From Ignavibacteriota bacterium (GTDB taxonomy: Bacteria; Bacteroidota; Ignavibacteria; Tepidaquicellales; Tepidaquicellaceae), in NCBI GenBank assembly GCA_016218085.1, contig JACREY010000012.1:372001-436000 (forward strand): 64,000 nt of DNA. Direction: 5' to 3'. The notes below the pieces were generated by a model, which saw nothing but the letters and a program-made list of their open reading frames with translations, was not told the DNA's origin and made no database searches. Positions 4,448 to 11,088 of this stretch are shown piece by piece (within the stretch, counting starts at the first letter, position 1; each line of letters begins with the position of its first letter). Made by a program: the position numbers and the translations under genes.

Positions 4448-4480
4448 TGAGTAATGAGTAATGAATAATAAAGAGCTATT

Positions 4481-4523
4481 CTGTTGTTGTTAGTCCTGTT
4501 CTTTAGGACGACACAAACAACAA
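4481..4523. repeat. REP-like nested palindrome, diverged copy at left edge of island
   Basis: The outer arms are TGTTGTT-type and AACAACA-type, the inner arms are GTCCT and AGGAC. The order 'GTTGTT..AGTCC' on the left and 'GGACGACACAAACAAC' on the right parallels the copy at 5459-5501 ('GGACGTCACCAACAAC'). I read it as a fifth, decayed member of the REP family that surrounds the transposase gene at 5521. Confidence 0.6.
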
Positions 4524-4558
4524 AATAACATAAGAAATTAAAATGGGGAATAAATATT

Positions 4559-5389
4559 ATGAAAATTCAAAAAGAAGATATAATAAAAGATATACAAAGG
4601 GTAGCAAAAACATTTGGAGTCAAAAGCCTTAAAAGTAAAGATTTTCTAAAAAATTCTAATTATAAATTGGGGTCAATTAGATATCACTTTGAAACATGGA
4701 ACAATGCATTGATAGCAGCAGGTTTAGAACCTGTCGACCCTAACAAAATAATTAATGAACATCGCATAGAAATAAAAGATGATTTACTATTAAAAGATTT
4801 AATAAGATTATATAATGAATATGGCAAAGAACCTACACAGGATTTAATTAATTCAAAAGGAAAATATAGTACAAAGCCTTATAGAAAACGTTGGAAAACT
4901 ATTTCAAATGCTTTTCTAATTGCAAAAATAAATTTTGGAATCGAAATAAAAAGTGAAGTTTCAAAAGAAGAAGATGAAAAGAAAAATTACATTAATGTAA
5001 AAATAATTCCTGAAACAATAAAACCAAAATCTTTAAATAAACCAAGGGTAGTTTTTGGTGAACCTATTAATTTTAGAGGACTTCGATTTGCACCTATAAA
5101 TGAACAAGGGGTAGTTTATTTATTTGGAATGATAAGTCATGAATTAGGATTTTTAATTGAATCAATTAGAACATCATATCCGGACTGTGAAGGAAAAAGG
5201 TGTTTCGATAAAGATAAAAATCAGTGGGAGCATGTTCAAATTGAATTTGAATATTGCAGTTCAAATTTCTTGCAACATGGACATGATGAAAAAATATGTG
5301 ATGTAATAGTATGCTGGGTTCACGATTGGAAAGAATGTCCGATTGAAGTATTGGAATTAAAGAGTGTTATTAGATATCTTTCAAATTAA
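4559..5389 (+). CDS. homing-endonuclease-associated-repeat protein with PD-(D/E)XK-like nuclease domain
   Basis: This 276-residue protein has two parts. Residues 1-130 hold two units resembling the homing-endonuclease-associated repeat, a predicted DNA-binding module: the first centres on 'FETWNNALIAAGL' (about 48-60) and the second on 'RWKTISNAFLIAKINFG'. Residues 150-276 form a conserved domain with 'FGEPINFRGLRFAPINEQGV', then 'IEFEY', 'HGHD' and 'CDVIVCWVHDW', ending in 'VLELK'. Asp248 followed by Glu266-Leu-Lys268 fits a PD-(D/E)XK nuclease core. Nuclease action on DNA is inferred. The coding sequence is visibly richer in A/T than the flanking symporter and membrane genes. It is bracketed by REP copies and lies next to a transposase, all consistent with horizontal transfer. 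Confidence 0.65.
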   Translation: MKIQKEDIIKDIQRVAKTFGVKSLKSKDFLKNSNYKLGSIRYHFETWNNALIAAGLEPVDPNKIINEHRIEIKDDLLLKDLIRLYNEYGKEPTQDLINSKGKYSTKPYRKRWKTISNAFLIAKINFGIEIKSEVSKEEDEKKNYINVKIIPETIKPKSLNKPRVVFGEPINFRGLRFAPINEQGVVYLFGMISHELGFLIESIRTSYPDCEGKRCFDKDKNQWEHVQIEFEYCSSNFLQHGHDEKICDVIVCWVHDWKECPIEVLELKSVIRYLSN

Positions 5390-5400
5390 TAAAATCTATG

Positions 5401-5442
5401 CTGTTGGTGACGTGTCAAAAAGCGACACTTAAACACCAACAG
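5401..5442. repeat. REP nested palindrome A, left of RAYT
   Basis: Outer arms CTGTTGGTG (5401-5409) and CACCAACAG (5434-5442); inner arms GTGTC (5412-5416) and GACAC (5424-5428). The unpaired 'AC' on the left and 'TTAAA' on the right give the element a direction, the asymmetry expected of REP substrates of Y1 transposases. Confidence 0.75.
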
Positions 5443-5458
5443 CGGCGAGTGAGGTGCC

Positions 5459-5501
5459 GTTGTTGGTGTTTAGTCCGCCGCAGGCGGACGTCACCAACAA
5501 C
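5459..5501. repeat. REP nested palindrome B, inverted relative to A
   Basis: Outer arms GTTGTTGGTG (5459-5468) and CACCAACAAC (5492-5501); inner arms GTCCGCC (5473-5479) and GGCGGAC (5483-5489) with a GCA loop. Its unpaired bases (TTTA left, GT right) are the reverse complement of those in copy A, so A and B form a head-to-head pair, the arrangement called REPIN or BIME in other bacteria. It ends 19 bp before the chosen RAYT start. Confidence 0.75.
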
Positions 5502-5520
5502 AGAAAATATCTGGGTGAAA

Positions 5521-6051
5521 ATGGAAGAGAAAGAAAATCATTTAACTTTTTTCACGGCAACGATATTAAATTGGAACCATTTACTAAAATTTGACAAGTA
5601 TAAAGATATTATTGTAAAAAGTTTAAAATTTTTAGTAAATGAAAAAAGGGTAGTATTATCTGCCTTTGTCATAATGCCGAATCATATTCATATTGTTTGG
5701 AGAATTAACAAAGAGCTAAAATATGAGTATGTTCAGAGAGATTTTCTTAAATATACATCACAAATGATTTTAAATGATTTGAAGAAATATCATCCTTTAA
5801 GGCTAAAAAAATTTTATGTTAATGCAAAAGACAGAAAATATCAAATTTGGGAGAGAAATCCTTTGTCTGTAAATATATTCTCTGAAAAAGTTGCGTTTCA
5901 AAAAATTAATTATATACATATGAATCCTTTGCAGGAAGGTTGGAATTTGTGTGAATTACCAAATTTGTACAGATATTCTTCTGCTCGTTTTTATTATGAC
6001 GGAATTGATGATTGGGGGATTTTGACACATTGTTTAGAAAACTATTATTAG
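5521..6051 (+). CDS. REP-associated tyrosine transposase (RAYT, Y1/IS200-like superfamily)
   Basis: A 176-residue HUH/Y1 transposase of the RAYT type, a single-strand DNA nuclease thought to act on REP hairpins. The metal-binding HUH motif is seen as 'VIMPNHIHIVWRI' (His-Ile-His). The C-terminal half has 'KINYIHMNPLQEGW' and 'YRYSSARFYY', the conserved RAYT tail; I could not fix the catalytic tyrosine with certainty. I chose the ATG at 5521 because the upstream extension to 5398 would translate the REP hairpins and carries no conserved residues. The gene is flanked within 100 bp by two REP copies on each side, which is the signature genomic setting. Length is normal for RAYTs. No terminal IS repeats or target duplication were seen, so it is probably a domesticated single-copy gene. 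Confidence 0.85.
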   Translation: MEEKENHLTFFTATILNWNHLLKFDKYKDIIVKSLKFLVNEKRVVLSAFVIMPNHIHIVWRINKELKYEYVQRDFLKYTSQMILNDLKKYHPLRLKKFYVNAKDRKYQIWERNPLSVNIFSEKVAFQKINYIHMNPLQEGWNLCELPNLYRYSSARFYYDGIDDWGILTHCLENYY

Positions 6052-6054
6052 TTG

Positions 6055-6094
6055 CTGTTGGTGGCGTGCACAGACCGCACTTAAACACCAACAG
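6055..6094. repeat. REP nested palindrome C, right of RAYT
   Basis: Outer arms CTGTTGGTG (6055-6063) and CACCAACAG (6086-6094), inner arms GTGC (6066-6069) and GCAC (6077-6080), with 'TTAAA' unpaired on the right as in copy A. It begins 3 bp after the RAYT stop codon. Confidence 0.75.
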
Positions 6095-6108
6095 CGGCGT
6101 GGGTTTTG

Positions 6109-6149
6109 CTGTTGGTGGCGTGCACAGACCGCACTTAAACACCAACAAC
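6109..6149. repeat. REP nested palindrome D, direct repeat of C
   Basis: Nearly identical to copy C over about 40 bases at an offset of 54 bp, and in the same orientation. It lies 26 bp before the next gene, so its hairpin will be in or near the 5' leader of the membrane protein gene at 6175. Confidence 0.75.
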
Positions 6150-6174
6150 GGCATAAAGAAGAGGAAAGCTAATT

Positions 6175-8642: not shown

Positions 8643-9962
8643 ATGTCAGAAGATCATTATCACAAAAAAACGCTGGCTATTCTTGTGGGAGGAGGTCCTG
8701 CTCCGGGAATAAACGGTGTAATCAGGTCTGTTACGATTGAAGCGATTAATTCAGGTCTGAACGTAATCGGAATTTATGACGGTTTCGAATATCTGAGCAA
8801 GGGTGACTCAAGCCATACAATCGAACTGAGAATAGAGGATGTTTCACGTATTCATTACAGCGGCGGAAGCATTTTACATACTTCAAGGGTAAATCCCGCA
8901 AAGAGCAAGGAAATGCTCGATGCAGCAATGAAGGCATTAACGCAGTTATCCGTTGATTATCTTGTAACAATCGGTGGAGACGATACTGCAACAAGCGCTT
9001 CTAAAATTGACCAGCTTGCAGCAGGTCAGATTCAGGTCGCTCACGTTCCAAAAACAATTGACAACGATTTACCGCTTCCCGGAAATATGCCTACATTCGG
9101 ATACCAGACGGCAAGGGATTTCGGTTTTCATATTGTACAGTCACTGATGGTTGATGCTGCAACAACGAGGCGCTGGTACTACGTTGTAACAATGGGCCGC
9201 AAGGCCGGACATCTTGCCCTTGGTATAGGCAAAGCGGCAGGTGCTACGCTTACGATTATCGGAGAGGAATTCCGCGATACTACAATCAGTTTCGAAACAG
9301 TTTGCGATATACTCGAAGCTTCGATAATAAAAAGAATGGCTCAGGGAAGCAATTACGGAATTGCAGTTCTTGCAGAAGGAATAATAACAAGAATAGACCA
9401 GGAGGAACTCAGAAATCATCCGTATGTAAACCTGGAAAAGGATTTGCACGGACACATCAGGCTTTCTGAAATAGATATTGGAAGAATAACAAAGGATGAA
9501 GTGAGAAGGAGACTCCGCGAAAGAGGAATAAATGTTACGATAGTAAACAAGGATATCGGATATGAATTAAGGTGCGCATCACCCATTCCTTATGACTGCG
9601 AGTACACGCAGGATCTGGGATATGCAGCTGTCAGGTACCTTTTATCCGGAAATTCAGGAGCTATAGTTACAGTTGACAAGGGACAGCTGATTCCCATTAA
9701 ATTCAAAGATATTATCAATAAAGACGGCAGAATAAATACAAGGGAAGTGGACGTTGATTCTGACAGCTATCAGGTTGCAAGAAAATACATGATCAGGCTG
9801 GAAAAGCTGGACTTCGAAGAGCTGAAGAACGTAGCAAGATATGCTTTGATAGGGAATATGAAGACGGAAGAATTCATTGACAGATTCCAGTATCTTACCA
9901 ATGATCCACCGGTGAAAGAAAGAAAAGAGCACAAAGAAGAAAAAGCCAAAAGCAAGAAATAA
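8643..9962 (+). CDS. 6-phosphofructokinase, PPi-type active site
   Basis: A 439-residue PFK-family enzyme phosphorylating fructose 6-phosphate in glycolysis. The N-terminal loop is 'GGGPAPGINGVI'. The donor-site motif reads 'GGDD' (residues 111-114) and the catalytic loop 'PKTIDND' (136-142). In this family Asp at the fourth position of GGDx together with Lys at the position held by Gly in E. coli PfkA is the established signature of pyrophosphate dependence, so a reversible PPi-PFK is the best reading. The C terminus has an extra charged tail (residues 425-439, Lys/Glu rich). A rho-independent terminator follows immediately, separating it from the second PFK gene. ATP use cannot be excluded without assay. 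Confidence 0.85.
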   Translation: MSEDHYHKKTLAILVGGGPAPGINGVIRSVTIEAINSGLNVIGIYDGFEYLSKGDSSHTIELRIEDVSRIHYSGGSILHTSRVNPAKSKEMLDAAMKALTQLSVDYLVTIGGDDTATSASKIDQLAAGQIQVAHVPKTIDNDLPLPGNMPTFGYQTARDFGFHIVQSLMVDAATTRRWYYVVTMGRKAGHLALGIGKAAGATLTIIGEEFRDTTISFETVCDILEASIIKRMAQGSNYGIAVLAEGIITRIDQEELRNHPYVNLEKDLHGHIRLSEIDIGRITKDEVRRRLRERGINVTIVNKDIGYELRCASPIPYDCEYTQDLGYAAVRYLLSGNSGAIVTVDKGQLIPIKFKDIINKDGRINTREVDVDSDSYQVARKYMIRLEKLDFEELKNVARYALIGNMKTEEFIDRFQYLTNDPPVKERKEHKEEKAKSKK

Positions 9963-10056: not shown

Positions 10057-11088
10057 ATGAAAATCGGAGTATTAACAAGCGGCGGCGACTGTCCGGGGCT
10101 TAACGCGGTTATCCGCGCAATAGCAAGAAAGGCAGACCAGTTCGGATATGAAACCATAGGCATAATGAACGGCTGGAAAGGGATATTCGACGAAAGCTAC
10201 AAACCCCTGTCGCTTGCAAACGTTGCCGGAATAATCAATCGCGGCGGAACGATTCTCGGCACGTCGAGATTTTCCCCGTTCGAGCAGAAAAGCGGAAAGG
10301 ATACTCTACTTCATAAAATATCGAGGGAAGGCTTCGATGCAATAATATCAATCGGCGGAGAAGGCTCGATGCACATAGCTCAGCTTGCCCACGAAGCGGG
10401 AATCAATGTAATAGGCGTTCCGAAAACAATCGATAATGATATAAGCGGTACTGACTATACTTTCGGATTCGATACTGCAGTTGGGATTGCAACAGAAGCC
10501 ATCGACAGGCTGCACACAACGGCGGAATCCCATCACAGGATTATGGTCCTCGAAGTAATGGGAAGGCATGCAGGCTGGATTGCACTGTATTCGGGTATTG
10601 CAGGCGGTGCGGATGTTGTAATAATACCGGAAAAGAAAACCAAGATTTCCGAAATAGTCGACGTGCTGAAAAGCCGATATAAAAGAGGAAAACTTTTCTC
10701 CATAGTTGTTGTCGCTGAAGGCGCGCAGTTTCTGGAAAAAGAACTAAAGCCGAAAAAAGACAGTAAAAAACTGGATGACTTCGGGCGTGAAAGGCTTGGC
10801 GGTATCAGTTATTACCTCGCAGAAGAAATCGAAAAGCGCACGGGTTTCGAAACGCGTGCAACTATTTTAGGATACATTCAGCGCGGCGGGATGCCTTCTG
10901 CATTCGACAGGATACTAGGAACTAGATTTGGCATCTATGCTGTTGAAATGGTCAAGGCAGGGAAGTTCGGCAGGATGGCAGCTTTGCAGTCGAACGAAAT
11001 TACTGATATTCCCATTAAGGAAGCAATCGGAAAACTTAAAACGGTTGATCCAGAACAATACAAAGTCGCACAGGTTTTCTTTAAATAA
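10057..11088 (+). CDS. 6-phosphofructokinase, ATP-type donor site
   Basis: A 343-residue PFK with the short length of bacterial and actinobacterial-like enzymes. It begins 'MKIGVLTSGGDCPGLNAVIRA'. The donor motif is 'GGEG' (100-103), with Gly at the position that decides for ATP, while the catalytic loop is 'PKTIDND' (122-128) with Lys. This Gly/Lys combination is known from ATP-dependent group III PFKs such as that of Streptomyces, whereas PPi enzymes of that group have GGED. Irreversible ATP-dependent glycolytic flux is therefore inferred, complementing the PPi-type enzyme encoded just upstream. The gene has its own leader after a terminator, and 12 bp separate it from the permease gene downstream. 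Confidence 0.85.
   Translation: MKIGVLTSGGDCPGLNAVIRAIARKADQFGYETIGIMNGWKGIFDESYKPLSLANVAGIINRGGTILGTSRFSPFEQKSGKDTLLHKISREGFDAIISIGGEGSMHIAQLAHEAGINVIGVPKTIDNDISGTDYTFGFDTAVGIATEAIDRLHTTAESHHRIMVLEVMGRHAGWIALYSGIAGGADVVIIPEKKTKISEIVDVLKSRYKRGKLFSIVVVAEGAQFLEKELKPKKDSKKLDDFGRERLGGISYYLAEEIEKRTGFETRATILGYIQRGGMPSAFDRILGTRFGIYAVEMVKAGKFGRMAALQSNEITDIPIKEAIGKLKTVDPEQYKVAQVFFK

Follow-up and report, generated by a model that had tools for sequence, protein, structure and literature searches.

The stretch of DNA analysed here, a window of 64 kb from the genome of an Ignavibacteria-like bacterium, holds a small transposase-like gene set among nested palindromes. This raises the question of whether gene and palindromes belong together and, if so, what kind of system they form. 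An earlier note on this DNA had read them as a REP-associated tyrosine transposase (RAYT) with cognate REP-like hairpins. Our combined findings favor a more specific form of this reading, to which we assign a probability of about 87%: a REPtron of Bacteroidota type, consisting of a single-copy, subclass 2.6-like RAYT and its cognate hairpins, with a mechanism that we infer by analogy.

The gene (5521–6051, + strand) encodes a protein of 176 aa with the HUH motif NHIH and a catalytic tyrosine, Tyr131, in the motif YIHMNP. Its probable start is at 5521 rather than 5398, because the longer frame crosses the palindromes. The protein matched the Pfam profile Y1_Tnp slightly under the curated cut-off (E 5e-4) and the NCBIfam profile REP_Tyr_transpos (NF047646) with an E value of 7e-20 and 71.4 bits, below a cut-off of 80 that is an annotation threshold and not a biological definition. 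In a search with the predicted structure (mean pLDDT 91.5), the closest fold was the E. coli RAYT-REP complex (4er8, E 4e-8), followed by IS200/IS605 transposases. The columns of H55, H57 and Y131 were invariant in the alignment of homologues. Motifs, profiles and fold thus agree with the earlier description of a Y1/HUH transposase lying between palindromes.

We inspected the window sequence and its open reading frames and found four nested palindromes at 5401–5442, 5459–5501, 6055–6094 and 6109–6148, exactly where the earlier note had placed them, including the 54-bp spacing of the right pair. Its inner stems (GTGTC, GTCCGCC and GTGC) were likewise as described, while its statement that the outer arms are shared needs narrowing: GTTGGTG/CACCAAC is common to all four palindromes, but the longer form CTGTTGGTG/CACCAACAG is exact in only two of them (2 matches in the 64 kb versus 0 in 100 shuffles). 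Folded as DNA, the four palindromes yield nested hairpins with z scores of -4.7, -6.0, -3.2 and -1.1, and an Rfam search of the window gave no match. The left hairpin of the RAYT (5455–5501, + strand) has the foot TGCC, the outer stem GTTGTTGGTG/CACCAACAAC and the inner stem GTCCGCC/GGCGGAC. On the right, a hairpin at 6054–6099 (- strand, inner stem GTGC) has its foot outward (CGCC on the - strand), and a near-identical second one follows 54 bp further in direct orientation (6108–6153, - strand).

Further to the left, a gene for a 276-aa HNH_repeat (PF18780) protein (4559–5389, + strand) lies between two other hairpins. The one on its right (5400–5447, - strand) carries the foot CGCC on its right side and faces the left hairpin of the RAYT. 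The one on its left (4479–4523, + strand) is a decayed copy, aligned by eye to the 5459 copy (TTAGTCC...GGACG), and corresponds to the diverged fifth copy reported earlier at 4481; it is genuine but weak, with degenerate arms, no foot and a folding z score of -2.2. The 5401 and 5459 copies are opposed with their feet inward and thus mark the place where two outward units meet: the RAYT unit (5459 and 6055) and the unit of the HNH-repeat gene (the decayed 4479 copy and 5401). Elsewhere in the window, a 194-aa secreted-looking protein, most of which consists of repeats centred on TVYSGDDAWKYWRF, is encoded at 1869–2453, and two adjacent phosphofructokinase-like genes lie in the same orientation at 8643–9962 and 10057–11088.

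We then counted copies in the rest of the genome by pattern search. Exact sites of the form GTTGGTGN{12,42}CACCAAC numbered seven, against none with a reversed-pattern control, so that the additional palindromes expected by the earlier note do exist: four are in the window and three are remote, all three of them intergenic among larger open reading frames. A looser pattern (GTTGNNG...CNNCAAC) gave 53 matches versus 73 in the control and was thus uninformative, apart from one extra diverged copy on the same contig (C3:291011). The genome therefore holds one RAYT of the window type and approximately eight repeats, a small family that makes for a weak REP population, far smaller than those of classical REPs. 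All seven exact copies can be aligned in a single orientation, in which the CC foot and GGTGTT are conserved, and read foot-first as [C/T][G/T]CC - [G/A][T/C]TGTTGGTG - TT... - stem - ...G[T/C] - CACCAACA. Their feet are CGCC, TGCC or CTCC, and no GTAG or GTGG tetranucleotide lies 5' of the hairpin.

Three further RAYT-like genes in the same genome have 34–36% identity to the window RAYT. The second RAYT, at C8:195728–196180, is flanked by another palindrome, GTTACCAAGCNNNNGCTTGGTAAC, at C8:195655 and C8:196248, with 13 exact copies genome-wide versus 0 in the reversed control. A third gene (C3:1820–2278) stands beside the palindromic repeat GTTCCCAACGGGGACGTTGGGAACGAG, and a fourth (C16:13950–14456) beside the palindromic repeats GTCGCGGGGAGTCTCTCCGAT with ATCGGAGGACTCCCGC. 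As the latter two adjoin yet other palindromic repeats, the genome seems to hold four pairs of RAYT and repeat.

Is the association between gene and hairpin retained in relatives? A homologue with 52–63% identity is present in roughly a dozen of the order's 44 genomes, although a few of these homologues are fragmentary or contain stops. The intact homologues inspected have inverted hairpins on either side, mostly of the form (C/G)CC-GTTGTTGGTS-NNNN-SACCAACAAC. Homologues from named genomes are nearly all from Bacteroidetes and occur widely in Bacteroidota (Pontibacter, Rufibacter, Mucilaginibacter, Roseivirga, Chitinophagaceae and others), the Pontibacter homologue having 59% identity to the window protein, and in a tree the Ignavibacteria-side sequences make up one side of a branch with moderate support. 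In a uniform test for two-sided hairpins, matching hairpins were present on both sides within 250 bp at 68 of 89 RAYT homologues versus 0 of 255 control positions, these being random sites on the same contigs. Together with the further copies, this result gives good support to the pairing of a RAYT with cognate REP-like hairpins. The stem sequence also diverges together with the RAYT: stem distance and RAYT distance were correlated (Mantel r = 0.27, 0/2000 permutations), a value from which shared ancestry has not been removed.

Copy number was related to the presence of the gene as well. Most RAYT-bearing relatives carry 9–42 repeats. Hairpins were commoner in those genomes of the order with a close RAYT (44 genomes, Mann-Whitney p = 2e-4), and at the level of the phylum the presence of at least three copies was associated with a close RAYT (Fisher p = 4e-6). 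The expectation that relatives without the RAYT should be poor in palindromes was for the most part borne out. The same-genus genome G024 (88% complete) had no RAYT of the window type and zero palindrome copies in either form, in keeping with the trend over the order, but G001, G010, G014, G023 and G029 keep many copies, several of them 9–21, with no close RAYT detected. One of these, G023 (same family, 93% complete), has 15 nested palindromes, mostly near GTTGGTGACGCCAAAGAACGGCTAACACCAAC (contigs C30, C47, C71, C116 and others), and no RAYT match in a search of its genome; these palindromes are either an orphan family or belong to a RAYT that was missed.

Comparison of the hairpins revealed that they have a direction: a (G/C)CC foot lies 5' of a stem of 10 bp (NNTGTTGGTG in the window genome), and the loop starts with TT. 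The oriented pattern SCC-NNN-GTTGGTS-N4-SACCAAC had 188 matches over the order, against approximately 8 expected and 0 in the reversed control; short-loop hairpins counted in the same genomes came to 253, versus these 188 with the SCC foot. Where the stem ends on its outer side, the adjoining bases are mostly CGCC, TGCC, AGCC or CCCC, and the loops, read foot-first, are TTNT in nearly all copies listed. The hairpins flank RAYT genes in inverted orientation with their feet outward; others are scattered through intergenic DNA or form short pairs, again with feet outward. Among the matches listed, the feet pointed outward in 7/7 RAYT-flanking pairs, while RAYT-free pairs less than 300 bp apart comprised, in small counts, seven with feet outward, none inward and three direct. 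In several loci (L064, L068, L075, L076 and L094) the basal pair differs systematically by side, being C-G upstream (CTTGTTGGTG) and T-A in the downstream hairpin read foot-first (TTTGTTGGTG). The enzyme may tell the left from the right hairpin end by this pair.

Most relatives have a 4-nt loop, with neither TTAAA nor an inner stem. The loop TTGT of the relatives appears in the window as TTTA-stem-GT, which indicates one and the same hairpin, enlarged by a second helix within the loop. Judged by sequence, the nested palindromes of the window are thus this footed hairpin, to whose loop an inner helix, variable in sequence, has been added. Over 39 nested copies, the inner loop folded modestly above shuffles (mean z = -1.1), so that the inner helix is sometimes not a strong stem. 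The "unpaired TTAAA" of the earlier note is the TTTAA of the loop viewed from the opposite strand, and its proposal that the protein recognizes the outer arm plus TTAAA is incomplete: what is conserved is the outer stem, the loop-initial TT and a one-sided (G/C)CC foot, which had been overlooked. RAYTs of other Bacteroidota lineages (L060, L062, L078, L081, L084 and L117) likewise have nested long-loop hairpins on their flanks, and since these are scattered across the family, the loop extension probably arose more than once.

We considered whether the locus could instead be an array of mobile cassettes, in which outward pairs mobilize their content and the RAYT, the hairpins and the HNH-repeat gene arrived as one block. 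The whole block of ~1.7 kb (4448–6174) is missing in G024, where the gene for an SSF transporter (90% identity) and that for an 810-aa protein (79%) are adjacent on one contig with a short spacer. Both block genes are AT-rich, with 27% GC versus 38% for the window, and both units are outward, the HNH gene lying between its decayed left hairpin and a foot-bearing right one. This picture, drawn from sequence comparison, fits acquisition, but loss in G024 would look alike. Moreover, the left hairpin of the HNH gene is footless, no second copy of the block was found in its own genome, and none of the three HNH homologues elsewhere in the order had such hairpins within its 3.3-kb locus. We therefore regard an array of this kind as unlikely. 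The HNH-repeat gene may be a passenger in the block. That outward hairpin pairs let the RAYT carry passengers, with this nuclease-like gene as cargo mobilized in trans, is improbable; if true, the system would not spread repeats alone but would act as a REP-based gene cassette. A role of the HNH gene as a defence protein was considered and rejected, as there was no PADLOC match and no convincing solved relative.

It is more doubtful still that the locus is an ordinary insertion sequence resembling IS200/IS605, with the subterminal hairpins forming its ends. Such an element would account for a Y1 transposase between inverted hairpins and for the empty site in a relative. However, RAYTs of the window type are present as one or at most two diverged genes per genome, near-identical sets were never found in the genomes of the order searched, and the hairpins are dispersed singly. 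Furthermore, the protein scores as a RAYT and not as IS200, in line with its nearest fold. Palindromes that separate single genes could also suggest an integron. This candidate was rejected on inspection, since the consensus for attC sites has the outermost bases RYYYAAC...GTTRRRY and those of the window are GTTGGTG...CACCAAC; the linkage of RAYT and hairpin explains the layout better. Very improbable, too, is that the palindromes are RNA elements (terminators or mRNA stabilizers) unrelated to the protein: the hairpins are stable and several lie just past stop codons (6055 is 3 nt after the RAYT stop, and a copy on C21 is a few nt after the end of an open reading frame), but two-sided pairing at 68/89 homologues, a one-sided foot, strict outward orientation and a stem that co-varies with the protein do not follow from such a role.

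How does a REPtron in this genome compare with known systems? The earlier note had described RAYT/REP systems as known from gamma-proteobacteria, a range that is too narrow: tnpA-REP has been reported in ~25% of bacterial species (PMC8266576), and RAYT subclass 2.6, equivalent to Bertels group 5, is found mainly in Bacteroidetes (PMC6006769). This subclass has a length of ~179 aa and the motifs NH[LIV]H, WQ, YIH[QN]NP and a C-terminal SS, and the 2018 classification describes its REPs only as "atypical", lacking the GT[AG]G foot and present at other genomic sites as well (PMC6006769). The window RAYT resembles it in NHIH, in its length and in an SS after the tyrosine (YSSA), and departs from it by one residue each in WE for WQ and YIHMNP for YIH[QN]NP. 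By that description, its hairpins are similar too, being atypical flanking hairpins with no GTAG foot and with copies elsewhere, and so is the distribution in Bacteroidetes; the Ignavibacteria-like host and the nested, long-loop form of the window hairpins are differences (PMC6006769).

The E. coli REPtron (subclass 2.2, 4er8) shares the HUH-Tyr fold, a one-sided 5' foot, a REP and an inverted REP around the gene, and a single gene copy (PMC8266576). It differs in that the window-type foot is (G/C)CC rather than GTAG and the stem pairs perfectly, without an essential bulge (PMC8266576); in addition, the window system has a low copy number, and identity to the E. coli RAYT is 19% in the structural alignment. 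As in Pseudomonas REPINs, inverted hairpin pairs with no RAYT between them are dispersed in the genome, although here they are a handful and singlets dominate (PMC3116915). TIRtrons, or TIRYT genes, are similar in that tyrosine transposase genes lie between inverted, partly self-complementary non-GTAG repeats belonging to small families, but the GGGGWSAS motif of some TIRtrons was not seen in the flanks inspected here (PMC3733652).

By analogy with work on the E. coli RAYT (PMC8266576) and with the enzymes of IS200/IS605, the protein would most probably bind the hairpin as folded single-stranded DNA, with the foot telling the strands apart and guiding cleavage. Tyr131 would nick beside the foot, after which the ends would be rejoined. 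By such copying or movement, single hairpins or feet-outward pairs would reach new positions between genes, and the RAYT gene itself would rarely move.

The window RAYT represents an Ignavibacteria branch within a family described earlier from Bacteroidetes, which makes it informative while the kind of system is not new. The useful addition is an explicit definition of foot, stem and loop, subject to comparison with the published subclass 2.6 hairpins, to which ours were compared by description only. RAYT biochemistry has so far been built on GTAG-type proteobacterial systems. For the poorly described Bacteroidota type, the sequences now point to a candidate substrate that combines a (G/C)CC foot, a stem of 10 bp and a TT-led loop, strand-specific and arranged in outward pairs, and the nested copies indicate that an extra helix can enter the loop while foot and outer stem stay. 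Since this definition spans dozens of genomes, including those of cultured Pontibacter, Mucilaginibacter and Roseivirga, the cleavage and spread of these hairpins are directly testable.
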